Source: a virus. Taken from it: a stretch of DNA of 64,000 nt. Positions within the stretch are counted from its first letter, which is position 1, and each line of letters begins with the position of its first letter. The notes under the pieces were generated by a model. That model ran no database searches, was not told where the DNA came from, and saw only the letters and a list, made by a program, of their open reading frames with translations. Both the position numbers and the translations under genes were made by a program. Of the stretch, positions 44,724 to 64,000 are shown in pieces. The DNA lies in IMG/VR virus record IMGVR_UViG_3300030406_003049, positions 1 to 64,000 of that record. One strand, 5' to 3'.

Positions 44724-44857
44724 TATTCTTCACCATACCATTCTTTTTTATTTACTTCTTTTACTCCGTCATATTCATTACAAGTAGAACAAGACCAATA
44801 ACCTAAATCATCGTCTGCTTCTCCTTCACAATAAACACAAATCATAATTGTTGTCAT
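44723..44857 (-). CDS. Zinc-ribbon microprotein
   Basis: 44 residues, CVYC and CSTC knuckles, otherwise acidic. Its TAA overlaps the GroES ATG (TAATG) and its ATG overlaps the JAMM peptidase stop. Coupled expression between deconjugase and co-chaperonin genes. Confidence 0.6.
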   Translation of the reverse strand: MTTIMICVYCEGEADDDLGYWSCSTCNEYDGVKEVNKKEWYGEE

Positions 44858-45375
44858 TCTTCCTCGCCTCTATATTGTCTTTGCTCCATAGTAGAAACTA
44901 CTCCGTTTTCATCTACATATCTAATTGTTAATAAATTAGGCTCGGTATTATTCCAATAACCATAATGTTCTACACCGCCTAATACATAGGCTTCGTGCAT
45001 TAATCCATTCCATGTATTAACTGTCTTCCAATCAACACCACTAAAGTAAGCACTGCCGAATGGGTGTGTATGAATCCAACACTTGATAGGTAATTTCATG
45101 CCGATAGGGGGCTTCATACCAAACTCAACATAGCCCGAAGAACCTGTAGTGGTATGACAATTATTATCACCATCAATAACTACTTGCACTTCTAAAGCGG
45201 GTAGTATTACAGTTGAAGCATACCAAATAGCCTCAAAAAAACCTAATGCTTCAACATCTTGTTCACAATCCCATGCTTCTTTTATGTGTAGTTCTGCACT
45301 TTTTCTAGCATCTTCAATGCTTGACTCATATTCAACCATGTTTTCAAAATCTCTTATTGATTTACCATCGCCCAT
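44854..45375 (-). CDS. JAMM/MPN+ metalloprotease (deubiquitinase-like)
   Basis: 173 residues from ATG 45375. Complete JAMM signature: Glu84 (YVEFG) and HTHPFGSAYFSGVD with His102, His104, Ser112 and Asp115 (H-x-H-x7-S-x2-D), so it should bind zinc and be active. Such enzymes cut isopeptide bonds of ubiquitin-like proteins (archaeal HvJAMM cleaves SAMPs) or process precursors. An E1-like gene is 400 bases upstream, and a Ubl ending in GG is at 49751. Phage tail JAB proteins are an alternative class, but the context here is non-virion. Confidence 0.85.
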   Translation of the reverse strand: MGDGKSIRDFENMVEYESSIEDARKSAELHIKEAWDCEQDVEALGFFEAIWYASTVILPALEVQVVIDGDNNCHTTTGSSGYVEFGMKPPIGMKLPIKCWIHTHPFGSAYFSGVDWKTVNTWNGLMHEAYVLGGVEHYGYWNNTEPNLLTIRYVDENGVVSTMEQRQYRGEEE

Positions 45376-45595
45376 TATCAACCATCTCCACATAATCATA
45401 GTAAGCCTTCATAAATTTGTTAAATTCTTGCTTAGATACTTCTTGAATAATAACTCCACCGGAAGTATATACTTTCAGTTCAATTATATCATATGTGCTA
45501 TTATTCCAACTAATGTGCTGAATATTCTTATATCTAACACATGCTCTTCTCGTTTGTAAAACTCTTCTTAATACTGTTATATTTTCTCTTTCCAT
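45362..45595 (-). CDS. Small protein between JAMM and E1 genes
   Basis: 77 residues: basic helix ENITVLRRVLQTRRACVRYK, strands YDIIELKVYTSGGVIIQE, helix EFNKFMKAYYDYVEM. It overlaps the JAMM start by 14 bases and so may be part of the conjugation module, but no E2 or Ubl signature is visible: no C-terminal Gly, a single Cys (19). Confidence 0.55.
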   Translation of the reverse strand: MERENITVLRRVLQTRRACVRYKNIQHISWNNSTYDIIELKVYTSGGVIIQEVSKQEFNKFMKAYYDYVEMVDNGRW

Positions 45596-45597
45596 TT

Positions 45598-45747
45598 TTA
45601 TTCCTCCACTCTAATTTGTTCCATCACAAGGTCTGCATTTTCAACAATAAATTGTAAAATTACACTATGCAAATCCCTGTGCATTAAATCGTCTACATCT
45701 AGTTCCATGTTTATTTCTCCGTCTAACATTAATTTTATTTCTATCAT
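45598..45747 (-). CDS. Acidic microprotein
   Basis: 49 residues (MIEIKLMLDGEINMELDVDD..., helix VILQFIVENADLVME). GGATAAAAATG-type start region. It sits between E1 and JAMM genes; role unknown. Confidence 0.45.
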   Translation of the reverse strand: MIEIKLMLDGEINMELDVDDLMHRDLHSVILQFIVENADLVMEQIRVEE

Positions 45748-45756
45748 TTTTATCCC

Positions 45757-46314
45757 TCATACATTTATAATAGCGAATGAATTTACTCCATCACCGCTAA
45801 ACCATCTTTGAATCCATTGTGCGCCCATAGCCGCAATAGCCATGTGCATGAAATGTATTCCTTCTTGTGAACCGTCCCAAGATTCTCCTTGACAACTATA
45901 TGACCCATCTTTACCCGCTAGTAAACTATCATACATTGATGGGTCGGCCTCATAAGAAACATAGGCCGCATTTCTACCTTGAGAACGCAAGTCTAACCAC
46001 TTTATATTTGAGTTGTAAAGCATTCTTCTAGTGCTTAAGTTATCAACACAACAAACTACTAGGTCAAAGCCTTCAAGTTGTTGTGGTGTTAAGATAGGAT
46101 ATGGGCTAGAAATGCTTACACACTTATGTTTACCCATAGCCACAGACTTATTTTTTCCAACTTCTTCTTCACTAAAGTTTTGATATGTTAGATTCTTTGT
46201 TTCTACTTTATCATCATCATTCACTTGTATTTCATACAAGTCTAAATTATCTAAGAATGAAATAAGATAACTTCCTATTCCACCTGCTCCAATTACTAAT
46301 ATTTTTCTTTTCAT
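45757..46314 (-). CDS. E1-like (ThiF/MoeB/UbaA) adenylyltransferase
   Basis: 185 residues. GAGGIG nucleotide loop (9-14), VNDDDKVETKNLTYQNF (acidic strand end and N-L-x-x-Q, the usual Arg is Tyr44), GKNKSVAMGK and CCVDNLSTRR (Asp91, Mg2+ site) are the E1 signature. Late region YSCQGESWDGSQEGIHFMH corresponds to the final conserved segment with Cys141 as a possible thiol. Shorter than MoeB (~250), without the zinc CxxC pairs. It would adenylate the C-terminal Gly of a ubiquitin-like protein; a fitting partner is at 49751. Confidence 0.85.
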   Translation of the reverse strand: MKRKILVIGAGGIGSYLISFLDNLDLYEIQVNDDDKVETKNLTYQNFSEEEVGKNKSVAMGKHKCVSISSPYPILTPQQLEGFDLVVCCVDNLSTRRMLYNSNIKWLDLRSQGRNAAYVSYEADPSMYDSLLAGKDGSYSCQGESWDGSQEGIHFMHMAIAAMGAQWIQRWFSGDGVNSFAIINV

Positions 46315-46520
46315 ATTTGTTCACTTCTCCATTCTAAAATTTCTTTGCATGACATTGTTGCTTCCGCAACTTGTCGTGCAAAAATCTTGTCCATTACTCT
46401 TTTACAAGCACTAACTTTCCTATTCAACTTTACAGAAATTTCTTCATATGTCATATCTGTATTTACAACCATGTCATATAGTTCATCAAATTCTTCACTA
46501 CTCCATCTTCCTCTTTTCAT
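46311..46520 (-). CDS. Myb/SANT-like DNA-binding protein
   Basis: 69 residues. RGRWSSEEFDELYDMVVNTD, then MTYEEISVKLNRKVSACKRVMDKI: the Trp-acidic first helix and the third recognition helix of a Myb/SANT repeat. Overlaps the E1 start. Probably a transcription regulator of viral genes. Confidence 0.6.
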   Translation of the reverse strand: MKRGRWSSEEFDELYDMVVNTDMTYEEISVKLNRKVSACKRVMDKIFARQVAEATMSCKEILEWRSEQI

Positions 46521-46531
46521 TTTTATTCCTC

Positions 46532-46648
46532 CTAATATTTTCTACTTTGTTCATTATAGCCACAATCTTTACATTGGACTCCTTCATAATTTTCTGTTTC
46601 CCATTCAAACATTGTTCCATTACATCTAGGACACATATATTGTCTCAT
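46532..46648 (-). CDS. Zinc-ribbon microprotein
   Basis: 38 residues with CPRC and CKDC knuckles 20 residues apart, the TFIIS/RPB9-like ribbon spacing. Independent start ATG; next gene follows at 11 bases. Might touch RNA polymerase; unproven. Confidence 0.6.
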   Translation of the reverse strand: MRQYMCPRCNGTMFEWETENYEGVQCKDCGYNEQSRKY

Positions 46649-46650
46649 AT

Positions 46651-46860
46651 TCACACTTCCTCAAAAGTCATGTTAAAACCTTCATGGCCTAAAATTGCTT
46701 TTACATCAAAATTATCTATTAATTTAATGTCATTCATACTTACATTATCTTGTAAGAACTGAATTATTTTTTCAACCATCGTTCCCTTTTTCATTTCATC
46801 TAAGACATAGAGTTCACCGTCTACATCAAAGGTTATATTCCATATTGTTATATTCTTCAT
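46651..46860 (-). CDS. Small unknown protein
   Basis: 69 residues: beta hairpin ITIWNITFDVDGELYVL, helix TMVEKIIQFLQDNVSMND, final strand. Start behind GGAATGAAAA. No family recognised; lies between TFB and E1 modules. Confidence 0.55.
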   Translation of the reverse strand: MKNITIWNITFDVDGELYVLDEMKKGTMVEKIIQFLQDNVSMNDIKLIDNFDVKAILGHEGFNMTFEEV

Positions 46861-46863
46861 TTT

Positions 46864-47172
46864 TCATTCCTCCTCTCTTTTTTCTTTTTCTACTTTCTTT
46901 AAATCTTTACCGTGATATTTACTCCACGCCCTCACAAATGAAGACATGATTATCGCTTCTGCTTTACCTTCGGCAAATAACTTAGGGTGTTCAAGACCCC
47001 TTCTTTTTGTTTCATCTATTACATTAAACATTAGATACATTGATTTATTCAACCAACTTCTTATTTTGAAAGTTAGTCTATGAAGTTCCCTATCACTAAT
47101 CCTAGTGATGGGTGTTTGTATTCCATCTTTATCTGTTATCACATACGCATAAGTTAATATATTATCTTCCAT
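46864..47172 (-). CDS. Unknown protein next to TFB
   Basis: 102 residues. Starts with strand NILTYAYVITDKDG, then two helices (HRLTFKIRSWLNKSMYLMFN, AIIMSSFVRAWSKYHGKDL) and a charged tail. It follows TFB by two bases, so is co-transcribed. No function known. Confidence 0.6.
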   Translation of the reverse strand: MEDNILTYAYVITDKDGIQTPITRISDRELHRLTFKIRSWLNKSMYLMFNVIDETKRRGLEHPKLFAEGKAEAIIMSSFVRAWSKYHGKDLKKVEKEKREEE

Positions 47173-47173
47173 T

Positions 47174-48025
47174 TTAATTTCTCCTTATTTCATTTATCTG
47201 TTTACCTCTCAATTGAGAGCATTGTTCATAACCAATCAAAGCCAACAGTTTCTTTGTGGTTAGTTTTATGTTAGAAGTGGCTACATTCGCCCTTTCTGCA
47301 ATCTCTTTCTGTTTTATTGGGTGCAAAAACATATTTGCGGCAATCCAACAAATGCTAGAATAGTAGACTGTTCCTTTAACACAATCAGTTTCTTGGGTTA
47401 AAGTTTCAAACACTTCTAAAACATCTTGACACTTTGAAGCATAATTCAAATCATCTGTAATCTTAGAAGTTATTTGTTTCAACATATAATTAGGGTCTGT
47501 CTTAACTTTGGTGTTGGTATTGTAGTATTTGTTTATTCTTTTAATTGCCCTGTTCAATGTCCTAGTATTACAAGAAAATTCCTGCCTTAATTGCTTTAAA
47601 GGAATAGGTGTCCTATTTTCTTTTAGAACATAATAAACTACCGCAGTTGCTTTTTCTTCAATTCCTAAAGTAGTTAGAACATTTTTTCTATACAAATCAG
47701 TATAGCATTCTTCAACTCTACTAGATAATGGGTGTCTAGGCATAAGTGTTGATAACAACATATTACACATTCTAAGCCCATTATCTAAATGAGTAGTGTT
47801 GCTTGCTATCCACTTGACACTTTTCTTATTTGAATCAACATGACTTCCTAATTTTTTCTTACCGCCATAATCCGGTGTGTGAACAAACTCTCCGCTTTTA
47901 TCAACGGCTCTAACTGTTTGTTCAAACAATTCTGTTATTGCTATCAGCCCACAATCTACACAAGATAGTTCGCCTAAATTATCATTCATTTCAAAATTAT
48001 TTCCTTCGCATTCAAGACACTTCAT
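47174..48025 (-). CDS. tfb: Transcription factor B (TFIIB homologue)
   Basis: 283 residues. N-terminal zinc ribbon CLEC ... CVDCG (Cys 3, 6, 22, 25), a B-finger/linker region with VDKSGEFVHTPDYGGKKKLG, then two cyclin-like repeats of about 90 residues (EEKATAVVYYVLKE; ICWIAANMFLHPIKQKEIAE, then NVATSNIKLTTKKLLALI). Archaeal TFB length is ~300. A viral TFB could redirect host RNA polymerase to viral TATA promoters, such as the units at 58-61 kb. Confidence 0.85.
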   Translation of the reverse strand: MKCLECEGNNFEMNDNLGELSCVDCGLIAITELFEQTVRAVDKSGEFVHTPDYGGKKKLGSHVDSNKKSVKWIASNTTHLDNGLRMCNMLLSTLMPRHPLSSRVEECYTDLYRKNVLTTLGIEEKATAVVYYVLKENRTPIPLKQLRQEFSCNTRTLNRAIKRINKYYNTNTKVKTDPNYMLKQITSKITDDLNYASKCQDVLEVFETLTQETDCVKGTVYYSSICWIAANMFLHPIKQKEIAERANVATSNIKLTTKKLLALIGYEQCSQLRGKQINEIRRN

Positions 48026-49172
48026 TTAACTCAATCCTTTCATTTTCATTTGGTTTTTCTTTAAGATGGCTTTTGAGCGTATTAACTCTCGCCACCGTCA
48101 TATTATCATTCATAACTGCTAATGCTCTAGTGCAAAATTGGTCGCCTAGAGAAGAACCTCTAGCCATATTATCTATACAAATCGGCCCACTCCAATACCA
48201 ATTTTTAGTATTGGTTTCTTTATCAAATGTAAATTGTCTAACAAAGGTGGACACCATTTGAATATCCGACTTATATTTGTTATTAGTTAGTTTCCAATCA
48301 TAGTCATTACCTTTGATATACATTCTATCCGGTATTCCGGCTTCATCATAGAAGACTTTGATTCTATTCGGGAAATTACTTACCATTTCAGCAACCAACT
48401 CTCTAGCCTTACTTTCTACAATTTCATCGGTTCTGTTTTGCATTAGAAACGCTTTCATCATTTTAACATCGGACTCTCTAGGTTCTTTGTCCATCAACAT
48501 GCTATAAAGTCTCTTTAATCCGACTCTTCTAAATTTACTATTCTTTCTACCATGAATATAATATCCACAAAAAGACTGTAAATCTTTCATTGAGATATTA
48601 CCCCATACTCCATCACCAATCTCAATAGCAAACATCTTATCATCTATTTGAGCAACATTAAGTCTAACTTCCTGTCTATCAAAATCCTCATAGAAATGGT
48701 AAGGTATTCTATTTTCTAAAGCATACTTTACATCTTCCGGCAAACTTAATGAAGAAAACAAAGTCTTCATTAAAACCGTATTATCGTCAGTAAAGCATGA
48801 TTTGAACAATACCCTAGATAGCGCACTAGCAATAGTTTGCACACTTTCAGTTTGTCCGTTTAATCGGTATTTACCATTCTTTCTTGAAAGAGCAAATGGA
48901 CAGTCCTTAATCCAAATAACACCATCTAAATCTCCATCTCTAAATGTGCTACCACTAGCATTACTATATCCCCATCTAGTTACTCTAGGCTTTTGTAATA
49001 TAGTCTTGAACCATTTTTTCATAGCCGATTGAAGGGGGTCTTTGTATGACCTATCACTATATATTGTTTCTTGGCCTACTCCACCATGCCTACAAAGATT
49101 ACTTCTAACCAATGTTTTGTATGATTTTTGTTGGTCGTCGGGCGACATTATTCTTATATTTATTTCTCTCAT
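48012..49172 (-). CDS. 386-residue protein of unknown function upstream of TFB
   Basis: Soluble alpha/beta protein without recognised motif; contains many conserved-looking aromatic patches (YSNASGSTFRDGDLDGVIWI, NWYWSGPICIDNMARGSSLG) and a helical C-terminus (MTVARVNTLKSHLKEKP). Overlaps the TFB start by 14 bases. Could be an enzyme; nothing in it allows a safe call. Confidence 0.65.
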   Translation of the reverse strand: MREINIRIMSPDDQQKSYKTLVRSNLCRHGGVGQETIYSDRSYKDPLQSAMKKWFKTILQKPRVTRWGYSNASGSTFRDGDLDGVIWIKDCPFALSRKNGKYRLNGQTESVQTIASALSRVLFKSCFTDDNTVLMKTLFSSLSLPEDVKYALENRIPYHFYEDFDRQEVRLNVAQIDDKMFAIEIGDGVWGNISMKDLQSFCGYYIHGRKNSKFRRVGLKRLYSMLMDKEPRESDVKMMKAFLMQNRTDEIVESKARELVAEMVSNFPNRIKVFYDEAGIPDRMYIKGNDYDWKLTNNKYKSDIQMVSTFVRQFTFDKETNTKNWYWSGPICIDNMARGSSLGDQFCTRALAVMNDNMTVARVNTLKSHLKEKPNENERIELNEVS

Positions 49173-49176
49173 TTTA

Positions 49177-49344
49177 TCACATCATATATATTTTTGAATC
49201 TGATTTAGGCACACATTTTTTGTGCCTTTCTAATTTAATTTCTTCGGGCAATAATAGTTGCCCTCCGCATACACGGCATCTAGTAGCGATTCTTTTCTTA
49301 TACGCTCTATGGCTACTAACATAGTTCGGGTCTTTTTCTTTCAT
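49177..49344 (-). CDS. Zinc-binding microprotein
   Basis: 55 residues from ATG 49344 behind GGAGTAATTTAT. CRVC and HKKC form a Cys3His site; the N-terminus is basic (SSHRAYKKRIATR). Likely nucleic-acid binding. Confidence 0.6.
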   Translation of the reverse strand: MKEKDPNYVSSHRAYKKRIATRCRVCGGQLLLPEEIKLERHKKCVPKSDSKIYMM

Positions 49345-49696
49345 ATAAATTACTCCAATTTTTATTAAATTCACATATTTTACATTCTTTTTCACAATTA
49401 ACATCGTGAAACTTGAAAGCCTCAAGTCTTATTGGGAAGTTTCTTTTTTTCCAACGAGTAAAGCCTTCATCAATAGCGGGTTCGTGATTCCACAATTCAT
49501 CATTAAGTATTTGGTTCAATAAGTATTTCTTGTTCATTCTTTCAGTATTCAACACATGAAAGAATTTTTTAATGTTATCGTCTTTTTCAAAGTTATCCTT
49601 AATATCATGGATAATAAATGAATATGCACACTTAGCATAGTCGTCAATATCAAGGTCAAGCACTATCTCACCAAATGGGGAGAGGGTATATTTCAA
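49316..49696 (-). CDS. Unknown protein with a hairpin over its start
   Basis: 126 residues if started at TTG 49696 (behind GGGGGAGAGGG); a GTG at 49663 with GGTGAG in front is an equally good start. Begins KYTLSPFGEIVLDLDIDDYA, middle helical, C-terminal CEKECKICEFNKNW is a Cys cluster. A perfect 11-bp hairpin (49677-49706) covers the first ribosome site, so expression may be controlled. Confidence 0.5.
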   Translation of the reverse strand: MKYTLSPFGEIVLDLDIDDYAKCAYSFIIHDIKDNFEKDDNIKKFFHVLNTERMNKKYLLNQILNDELWNHEPAIDEGFTRWKKRNFPIRLEAFKFHDVNCEKECKICEFNKNWSNLYERKRPELC

Positions 49697-49706
49697 CCCT
49701 CTCCCC
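49677..49706 (-). promoter_or_regulatory. Perfect 11-bp hairpin after the Ubl gene
   Basis: GGGGAGAGGGT and ACCCTCTCCCC with an 8-base loop. It lies 45 bases after the Ubl stop and hides the GGGGGAGAGGG ribosome site of the next gene. No T-run follows, so a translational switch or RNA-stability element is more likely than a terminator. Confidence 0.6.
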
Positions 49707-49750
49707 CAAACACAATTCACAAGAAGATGAATTATCAACTTATTCCTTGT

Positions 49751-49951
49751 TTAGCCACCAACGATAGCAGGGGTCAAATCAACCATTTCTACCGTGTCCC
49801 AATTGATTTCGTTGATAGTTTCACGGCTAACCATTACACCATCAACAAAAACCCAATGTGTCGGGTGTGTGTCTATCTGTTCAATTACTTCACTTGCCTC
49901 AAGTTGCGAAGTGTAGTGTCCCATTTCGTTCTGTATTCTCAATTTTATCAT
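49751..49951 (-). CDS. Ubiquitin-like (ThiS/MoaD/SAMP-type) protein ending in Gly-Gly
   Basis: 66 residues: strand MIKLRIQNEMG, strand HYTSQLEAS, short helix, strand HWVFVDGVMVSRETIN, then WDTVEMVDLTPAIVGG at the very C-terminus. The VFVDG...VSRE... D-x-V-x-x-x-x-x-P-A-I-x-G-G arrangement is that of ThiS/MoaD/SAMP beta-grasp proteins, whose exposed GG tail is activated by an E1. The E1-like gene (45757) and JAMM peptidase (44854) are in the same leftward gene series. AGGAG precedes the ATG, and a TATA box (49987) and a downstream hairpin (49677) suggest its own transcript. Role: protein tagging or sulfur carrier. Confidence 0.75.
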   Translation of the reverse strand: MIKLRIQNEMGHYTSQLEASEVIEQIDTHPTHWVFVDGVMVSRETINEINWDTVEMVDLTPAIVGG

Positions 49952-49986
49952 ATCTATTTCTCCTGTTTTCTCTTCTTTTTAATCAC

Positions 49987-49994
49987 TATTTAAA
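49987..49994 (-). promoter_or_regulatory. TATA box of the Ubl gene
   Basis: TTTAAATA on the minus strand, 36 bases before the Ubl ATG, in a stretch between genes that also holds an imperfect AGCC/GGCT hairpin (50000-50020). Spacing allows a leader of about 10 bases with the AGGAG site. Confidence 0.5.
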
Positions 49995-50048
49995 GCGAGC
50001 CTGATTTTAGGCAGGGCTTTGATTAATGAAATTAAATTAATAATCAAT

Positions 50049-61870: not shown

Positions 61871-63100
61871 ATGACATGGGAAAATATACTCAAAGACAAA
61901 CCACTACTAGATATGAGAAGAATAAATAATCTATATTCCCCATATATTGCATATCATGTAGCAGGGTTGATAGAATCCGAACTTTATGGAAAACTTAGAA
62001 CTATTCCGTATAATGAAAAAATAAGCGACGCTTTAGAATATTGCATTAGTTTTGATTATAACGAATTTGCAGAAGAGATATTTAGTGGAAGCAAGGGCGA
62101 CTATGGTATAGCAGATAAAGAAGCCGAAGGGTTGTATAATGATGGTAAAAAATTTGGTGGTAAATTTACTCTTAAAGTAAGATGGGAAAAACCCATGTAT
62201 CAGTTTGAAGGAGTAGAAGAAGTTGGTAAAAAATTAGACGGTGTTGAATTAGATATAGAATATGAAGGTTCATGGGCTAAAAATTATCAAGGTGTAAAAC
62301 TAGGAAAGGGGCAGAATGTTAAAAATTTCAAAATCAATGCTTCTTCAATTAAAAAACAACTAGACGAGGCACTAGAAGGTGCAACCATTAAACACGACGG
62401 AGAAGAATATGGAGTAATGTTAAGATTTTTAGACAAGCCTGACTTTAAAATTAAGGCTCTTCAAGACTTAATTGGGCGAGCATATATGGACTATGGCGGC
62501 ACTATTGGTGACGACCCTGCAAGAAGTTATCCAAATTATAATAAAAGACCAACTAGTAAAACTAAGAAAGAGTCTTGGCGTAGCGTTTTGCGAACTAGTG
62601 CTAACTTTGGCGGTAAGGGTAGAAGGAGCGACAAGAAAGTAGATGCTTATATGAAGGCTCTTGATATTGACAATGACCCCGAATCCATAGCAGATATGCA
62701 ATCCGGTAAAAAACTCATACAAAATGATGTAGAAATTGCCGAAGGAATAAGTGTAGATGATTTCTACAAAATAATGGATAAAGCGAATGTAAGTCAAGAA
62801 AAGTTAGAAGAAGAAGAAGAAGAGGCAGATGCGGAAGGTAGAGATGAACTGATTTTTTACTTGCAGGGTGAAATGTCATCACTTGGTAAATTGGATTTAA
62901 ATATAACTGTTCCTAATCTTGAGGAGCGAAACACAAAGCGTAGCAGATATGGTTATATTGATGGAACTTATACCCCACTTACTTTTAACGAATATATGGA
63001 ATTAGAAAACATAAAGGCTAAACAACATATATTTGAGATTGAAAAAGTAAAAGAAGGTTTTATGAAAATTTTTGAAGAAGTAAAAACATTAGGTGAATAA
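61871..63100 (+). CDS. MTW-family protein 1, 409 aa, unknown
   Basis: ATG 61871 behind AAAAGGTGAATAAT; the first codons are MTWENILK. Helical N-terminus, mixed alpha/beta middle (GGKFTLKVRWEKPMYQFEG, LDGVELDIEYEGSWAK), acidic stretch EEEEEEADAEG, C-terminal helix. No family recognised. First of four consecutive genes that share the ribosome site and the start of the protein, so probably one virion or assembly module. Confidence 0.65.
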   Translation: MTWENILKDKPLLDMRRINNLYSPYIAYHVAGLIESELYGKLRTIPYNEKISDALEYCISFDYNEFAEEIFSGSKGDYGIADKEAEGLYNDGKKFGGKFTLKVRWEKPMYQFEGVEEVGKKLDGVELDIEYEGSWAKNYQGVKLGKGQNVKNFKINASSIKKQLDEALEGATIKHDGEEYGVMLRFLDKPDFKIKALQDLIGRAYMDYGGTIGDDPARSYPNYNKRPTSKTKKESWRSVLRTSANFGGKGRRSDKKVDAYMKALDIDNDPESIADMQSGKKLIQNDVEIAEGISVDDFYKIMDKANVSQEKLEEEEEEADAEGRDELIFYLQGEMSSLGKLDLNITVPNLEERNTKRSRYGYIDGTYTPLTFNEYMELENIKAKQHIFEIEKVKEGFMKIFEEVKTLGE

Positions 63101-63644: not shown

Positions 63645-64000
63645 ATGACATGGAAAAACGCTATTCGCAAGGCAAGAGTATATGATTTTACATATACTAC
63701 TGAACTTGAGAGGCGTAAGCATGGTAGATTGCATTCTATTACTGGTGGAAAGGGTGTCTATGAAACTGATTATGAAAAAGTCATAATTGAATGGAGTTTG
63801 ACTTTTGAGAATAGCGAAGATTCAGTATATATCCAAGAGCCGAATATTGACAAAATTACTGTAGTGGGTGTTGATGCTTCTTTTGATGAGGGCTTTGATG
63901 CGGCTAATATGGAATGGGATATAGAAAATAAAGATGTTGTAGTAGATGATGTTCAAGCAGATATATATTTAAGCACTAAGGAATTACCTATGACTTTGAT
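63645..64000 (+). CDS. MTW-family protein 4 (runs off the window)
   Basis: At least 118 residues, ATG 63645 behind CTAAGGTGAATAAT. MTWKNAIRKARVYDFTYT, then beta-rich (YEKVIIEWSLTFENS, IDKITVVGVDASF). Continues beyond 64000. Same first residues as the three genes before it. Confidence 0.65.
   Translation, partial: MTWKNAIRKARVYDFTYTTELERRKHGRLHSITGGKGVYETDYEKVIIEWSLTFENSEDSVYIQEPNIDKITVVGVDASFDEGFDAANMEWDIENKDVVVDDVQADIYLSTKELPMTL

Follow-up and report, generated by a model that had tools for sequence, protein, structure and literature searches.

The usual viral strategy towards ubiquitin-like systems is to hijack the one of the host. Among archaea, Haloferax volcanii uses a system termed sampylation, which, via UbaA and a JAMM enzyme, drives the turnover of TBP2, a known sampylation target (PMC4895103), and the archaeal JAMM enzyme CsRpn11 cleaves a ubiquitin precursor exactly behind its Gly-Gly (PMC6043591). 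In phages, beta-grasp/JAB protein pairs, such as the lambda proteins I and K, were reported in 2006 without an E1 (PMC1779556). Here, we analyze the genes of a ubiquitin-like protein (Ubl), an E1-like enzyme and a JAMM peptidase found in a 64,000-nucleotide stretch of viral DNA (positions 1-64,000 of the 94,947-bp IMG/VR record IMGVR_UViG_3300030406_003049; hereafter, the window). Related viruses keep these three genes together, and we lean towards the view that magroviruses encode a self-contained ubiquitin-like modification pathway that works without an E2.

The order Magrovirales comprises tailed viruses of Poseidoniales archaea that encode GroEL and GroES (PMC10768690, PMC5332604). In the window, we found a GroEL gene (Pfam, 2.8e-45) together with GroES-like and TFB-like genes; the leftward strand bears PolB together with genes for a clamp loader, a ligase and a helicase, and the rightward strand those for capsid, portal, tail and terminase. 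Since this layout matches that described for Magrovirales, we assign the virus, based on its gene content, to the magroviruses. The Ubl, E1-like and JAMM genes sit in the leftward replication/transcription cluster, apart from the rightward virion cluster. A search of the magrovirus literature, which was not exhaustive and may have overlooked an earlier report of the E1 or the JAMM, retrieved no mention of ubiquitin, ThiF or JAB. A very abundant group of marine archaeal viruses appears to count a modifier, an activating enzyme and a peptidase of its own among its core genes.

The three proteins and the expression signals of the Ubl

The original prediction, read from the sequence of the window, placed three open reading frames (ORFs) on its minus strand, where we confirmed them. 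Together with the signals that flank the Ubl gene, they are as follows:

49751..49951, minus strand: Ubl, 66 aa, beta-grasp, ending in ...TPAIVGG with nothing after the GG in this virus
45757..46314, minus strand: E1-like minimal ThiF-fold adenylyltransferase, 185 aa; GAGGIG, D33/D35, N41, Q45, K56, D91 and C141, with NLTYQ in place of NLxRQ
44854..45399, minus strand: JAMM/MPN+ metallopeptidase, start probably at 45375 (Met9); E70, H110, H112, S120 and D123
49987..49995, minus strand: TATA-like box of archaeal type (CTTTAAATA), 36-44 bases upstream of the Ubl start
49960..49963, minus strand: Shine-Dalgarno-like GGAG ahead of the Ubl start, read from the sequence
49677..49706, minus strand: hairpin downstream of the Ubl gene, 11-bp perfect stem, -34.4 kcal/mol, z -3.95

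The 66-aa protein had been expected to adopt a beta-grasp fold, and structure prediction bore this out. Its AlphaFold2 model (predicted local distance difference test, pLDDT, 90.9) shows a beta-beta-alpha-beta-(beta)-alpha-beta order with a flexible C-terminal tail, and nearly all of the top 50 fold matches in PDB are to ubiquitin, SUMO, NEDD8 or ISG15 (E 3e-3 to 3e-2; probability 0.75-0.99), members of the ubiquitin superfamily. Of the ORFs in the window that start with ATG and encode 45-150 aa (119 in all), the Ubl is the only one that ends in GG. Gly65-Gly66 is invariant in all 55 aligned Ubls and in 81/81 distinct tails. Of these tails, 15 stop at the GG, while 66 add one to three variable residues (SL, NC, NY, Q, QE and others), and at least three to four switches between bare and extended tails are placed on the E1 tree. 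Variable residues past an invariant Gly-Gly are, by analogy, the pattern of a ubiquitin precursor.

Profile searches had been proposed as a check on all three families, and they placed the E1 in ThiF and the JAMM relatives in Prok-JAB, whereas the Ubl stayed under the SAMP and ThiS cut-offs: NCBIfam SAMP1 was matched by 2 of the 55 Ubls (best 0.03) and Pfam ThiS by 4 of the 55 (best 8e-4), with a best NCBIfam ThiS value of 0.0065. ThiS and SAMP1 are weak sequence relatives of the Ubl, ThiS being the nearest; an end-to-end alignment with E. coli ThiS is in register and beats 200/200 shuffles, yet it is weak (E 0.009).

The assignment of the second protein as an E1-like adenylyltransferase held, with a Pfam ThiF match of 6.2e-17, above the curated cut-off. 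Its profile retrieved ThiF-type proteins, UBA1, UBA5, MccB, Cap2 and MoeB from PDB at 1e-10 to 1e-8, and it aligns with the PADLOC E1-E2 models at 4e-9. The hallmarks of the ThiF/E1 superfamily are present, i.e., the GxGGxG nucleotide loop, the DxD, the Lys and the Mg Asp; the GAGGIG loop, Asp33, Asp35, Asn41, Gln45, Lys56 and Asp91 are invariant in 70 relatives, as are Cys141, Arg110 and Arg114 (70/70). In the alignment with E. coli ThiF, the first zinc CxxC is cut down to S138-x2-C141 and the second is absent. Cys141 may be the acyl acceptor of the enzyme.

For the third protein, a JAMM peptidase with all metal and catalytic residues had been claimed, and motif, profile and fold agree with it. 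Glu70, His110, His112, Ser120 and Asp123, which form the full E ... HxHP(x)7SxxD motif, do not vary across 72 relatives. Taken alone, the JAMM of the window matches Pfam Prok-JAB at a sub-threshold 0.029; 60 of 67 relatives match this family (best 9e-5), and a search of PDB with the family profile picks up AMSH-type JAMM deubiquitinases at 1.2e-5 via the stretch WIHTHPFGsAYFSGtD. The best PDB matches of its AlphaFold2 model (pLDDT 86.5) are CsRpn11 at the top, Rpn8-Rpn11, RadC and AMSH-like proteins, with modest E-values (0.009 and weaker). The proposed start at 45375 is supported by Met9 of the longer ORF, conserved in 68 of 72 relatives. An intact JAMM gene is retained in each of the 23 loci whose Ubl ends at the GG; trimming therefore cannot be the sole job of the JAMM, and it probably works on conjugates too.

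Nearly all JAMM relatives end in EEE. In the window, these codons (44854-44866) overlap a Shine-Dalgarno-like sequence and the start codon of the next gene; since they are Shine-Dalgarno-like coding sequence there, we dropped the C-terminal EEE as evidence of a feature of the protein.

The TATA box and the strong hairpin that had been ascribed to the Ubl gene were both confirmed. A TATA box at about -40 to -50 is present in 61 of 99 Ubl upstream regions, with 3 expected from shuffles, while before the E1 (7/116) and the JAMM (4/114) it occurs at chance level. Strong RNA structure at the hairpin position was detected in 88% of 50 sampled relatives. Since the TATA box stands ahead of the Ubl only, the Ubl is, as far as promoter sequence indicates, the separately promoted member of the triad, which fits a modifier needed in larger amount than its enzymes.

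Conservation of the triad in related viruses

Separate searches from each of the three proteins, and then with their alignments, gathered about 240 viral loci; the collection searched holds at least 322 E1 relatives and at least 207 Ubl relatives. Co-occurrence was counted over 130 distinct E1 sequences, scoring the Ubl where the upstream DNA exceeded 7.5 kb and the JAMM where 3.5 kb of downstream DNA was available. All magroviral E1 loci so scored carry the partner genes, the Ubl upstream in 85/85 and the JAMM downstream in 118/118. No relative keeps the E1 and the JAMM without the Ubl where the flanking DNA allows the test, as had been expected if the three genes belong together; the sole exceptions to co-occurrence are planctomycete ThiF proteins from another scan. 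Near-genome-length records contain a single Ubl in 33/33 cases and a ThiF in 32/33, and the ThiF-less record starts inside the JAMM gene and stops shortly past the Ubl, i.e., it is cut where the E1 is expected. The Ubl-E1 spacing varies from 2.3 to 7 kb. Small flanking genes turn over among relatives, while the Ubl, E1 and JAMM genes stay, and their ratio of nonsynonymous to synonymous substitution rates (dN/dS) is far below 1 in nearly all pairs compared. Judged from these sequence comparisons, the three genes are inherited together, which links them strongly.

Magroviral E1 and JAMM genes also turn up on three contigs (L111, L112 and L113, the first also with the Ubl) that are binned into bacterial metagenome-assembled genomes (Altibacter, Maricaulis), probably through contamination. 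A scan of genome contigs, a set outside which the Poseidoniales genomes lie, returned only such magroviral contigs in bacterial bins and planctomycete ThiF proteins without Ubl or JAMM, and no host copy.

Two larger genes lie between the Ubl and the E1 in the window:

47174..48025, minus strand: TFB-like transcription factor, between the Ubl and the E1 (Pfam TFIIB zinc ribbon, 2.4e-5)
48012..49172, minus strand: conserved 386-aa protein, between the Ubl and the TFB; candidate accessory factor

The 386-aa protein was found in 101 of 111 sources of the first locus set, and it has no Pfam or PDB match and only a weak PtuA match in PADLOC. We considered it as an E2/E3 or a substrate, but Pfam, PADLOC (beyond the weak PtuA) and PDB gave no supporting relation.

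On the virion side, at least 11 rightward ORFs start with the motif M-x-W-x-x-I-[LV]-K (e.g., MTWENILK, MSWKNILK and MSWEDILK), and none on the opposite strand does. The motif is possibly a capsid-targeting or processing signal. These ORFs are located as follows:

Window 61871-63097 and 63645-63998, rightward: ORFs with the shared N-terminal motif M-x-W-x-x-I-[LV]-K
L248 479-844, 2643-3212, 3212-3406, 8770-9417, 12359-12562, 12836-13276, 13276-13626, 13634-14032 and 14032-14337, rightward: ORFs with the same motif

Proposed pathway and alternative explanations

Since all three genes are kept by related viruses, these viruses probably tag proteins, or move sulfur, by their own machinery during infection. 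In the pathway that we propose, the Ubl would be made from its own promoter, and the JAMM would clip the one to three residues behind the Gly-Gly where the gene encodes them. The E1-like enzyme, with ATP, would then activate the Gly-Gly carboxylate, perhaps handing the Ubl to the invariant Cys141, and the Ubl would be attached, with no dedicated E2, to lysine residues on proteins of the virus or the host. Finally, the JAMM would reverse the Ubl-protein bond. Of this, the analysis itself establishes the three folds or families, the catalytic residues, the invariant Gly-Gly, the strict co-inheritance and the separate promoter of the Ubl; adenylation, the thioester, lysine conjugation, JAMM cleavage, the targets and the viral benefit we infer. 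More tentatively, the pathway may be an autonomous E2-less conjugation with a re-wired minimal E1 site, which tags host proteins (e.g., transcription or defense factors) or viral ones during the infection of Poseidoniales. Transcription is an attractive, if speculative, target given the viral TFB gene between the Ubl and the E1 and, by analogy, the TBP2 turnover driven by sampylation in Haloferax.

Several observations weigh against this proposal. The N-terminal arm of MoeB and ThiF supplies a (second) arginine, and in the viral E1 this arm is missing, since the protein begins directly at the first strand, with no more than two further codons of open frame ahead of it. The Arg of NLxRQ is replaced by Tyr in 67 of 70 E1 relatives (NLxYQ). 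With both lacking, adenylation may rely on other residues, of which R110 and R114 are invariant, or may be non-canonical; the active-site arginines may have moved. No E2 or E3 was recognized: Pfam UQ_con was silent on the virus's own genome, as it likewise was on the control, and no E2 is among the first 25 Pfam families listed. Co-inheritance alone could mean no more than membership of the core genome. Moreover, sulfur-transfer partners could be supplied by the host, so that their lack in the virus only lowers the probability of a sulfur-carrier pathway.

In such a pathway, the E1 would make a Ubl thiocarboxylate whose sulfur passes to tRNA, a nucleotide or a metabolite, and the JAMM would trim the Ubl as QbsD does QbsE. 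We regard it as unlikely, but it is the main rival to conjugation. The tails GGCY, GGC and GGSC resemble the cysteine-containing tails familiar from sulfur carriers, ThiS is the nearest weak relative of the Ubl (Pfam 8e-4 among the four of 55 that match; E. coli ThiS alignment above 200/200 shuffles), and sets of Ubl, E1 and JAB occur in sulfur-assimilation clusters (Iyer et al. 2006, PMC1779556). Nevertheless, 34 magroviral records lack rhodanese, PAPS-reductase and ATP_bind_3 (thiolase), with positive search controls, and the first 25 families listed in the proteome scans include none for thiazole, MoaE or cysteine synthase. In addition, the viral E1 has no CxxC zinc pairs of the kind found in sulfur-carrier E1s, and the JAMM is retained even where there are no tail residues to remove. 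Protein conjugation is provisionally favored over sulfur transfer.

It is quite improbable that the viral Ubl, E1 and JAMM mainly disrupt host sampylation, competing with the host SAMP and stripping SAMP off viral proteins, with no productive viral cascade. With its non-canonical residues, the E1 could be a weakened enzyme, and Borg elements carry a SAMP along with many predicted deSAMPylases (PMC12660748). However, the E1 nucleotide and Mg residues are invariant save the arginines, dN/dS is low, a passive decoy would not need an invariant GG, and the three genes never separate. Still more improbable is an assembly module in which the Ubl serves morphogenesis and is cleaved by the JAMM, on the model of the tail proteins of phage lambda, I (beta-grasp) and K (JAB). 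Tailed phages provide the precedent of a Ubl-JAB pair (PMC1779556), but the triad is located in the replication/transcription cluster outside the virion cluster, it includes an E1 that lambda lacks, and the viral JAMM has no NlpC/P60 domain. That three unrelated core genes merely share one conserved block is barely credible: the TFB, the 386-aa gene and GroEL of the block are also widely conserved and the Ubl lies up to 7 kb from the E1 (2.3 kb at the closest), but all three known partner families were recognized independently, the GG is invariant with variable tails alongside an intact JAMM, and small neighbors turn over where the triad stays.

Since the three proteins are small and soluble, both the long-standing question of conjugation by an E1 in the absence of an E2 and the role of viral Ubls in archaea become testable in vitro.

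Comparison with described systems

Lambda-type tail proteins I and K share with magroviruses a Ubl and a JAB in a tailed phage (PMC1779556), but they have no E1 and are virion assembly genes. In crAss-like phages (crAss001 gp76/gp77), the replication module holds a ThiF gene (8e-16) side by side with a Prok-JAB gene (5e-4); they differ in that no GG-ending small protein was found within 5 kb and their proteins are larger and multi-domain. The E1-like genes of crAss-like and Vibrio phages adjoin Prok-JAB genes whose annotation goes no further than metalloprotease or hypothetical, with no obvious Ubl:

L252 3256-5654: E1-JAB pair, crAss001
L251 3601-5657: E1-JAB pair, crAss-like/Vibrio phage set
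L253 3890-5948: E1-JAB pair, Vibrio phage D69

In Xanthomonas phage PhiXhv-12, a ThiF gene is preceded, at a distance of about 2.8 kb, by the gene of a 140-aa protein ending in ...AKASGG (L254 1751-2173), a possible unrecognized jumbo-phage Ubl.

The bacterial Ubl-E1-(E2)-JAB defense operons (Bil, CBASS type II and the Iyer/Aravind classes) also link a Ubl, an E1 and a JAB, and the viral E1 aligns with PADLOC E1-E2 (4e-9) and Cap2. In contrast to these operons, the viral set has no recognized E2 domain, effector or cGAS gene and belongs to the core gene set of the virus. Borg elements of Methanoperedens are mobile archaeal elements with a SAMP and many JAMM deSAMPylase-like proteins; the part of their description used here stresses multicopy JAMM proteins and a SAMP rather than a strictly co-inherited Ubl-E1-JAMM triad, and Borgs are not tailed viruses (PMC12660748).

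The system of Caldiarchaeum subterraneum (CsUb, E1, E2, RING and CsRpn11) has a precursor cut behind its Gly-Gly by a JAMM (PMC6043591), and CsRpn11 is the best fold match of the viral JAMM. The magroviral set differs from it in being viral, in having no recognized E2 or RING, and in that its genes do not form one compact operon.

Haloferax volcanii sampylation (SAMP/UbaA/HvJAMM1, JAMM2) resembles the viral set in its small GG-ending beta-grasp modifier, single E1-like enzyme, JAMM isopeptidase and lack of a recognized E2. The original prediction called the viral genes the three parts of archaeal sampylation; the list of parts stood (GG-ending beta-grasp protein, enzyme of E1 fold, JAMM), whereas a SAMP family match above cut-off and the usual UbaA/MoeB/ThiF E1 features were not found. 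The viral set is virus-encoded, its 66-aa Ubl falls under the cut-offs of the SAMP models and usually carries one to three residues past the GG, and its 185-aa E1 has no zinc CxxC pairs and has Tyr for the Arg of NLxRQ. Since it fails the SAMP sequence family and the E1 hallmarks, the likeness is one of working rather than of demonstrated membership: by analogy, the magroviral triad may operate as sampylation or an E1-Ubl-JAMM module does.

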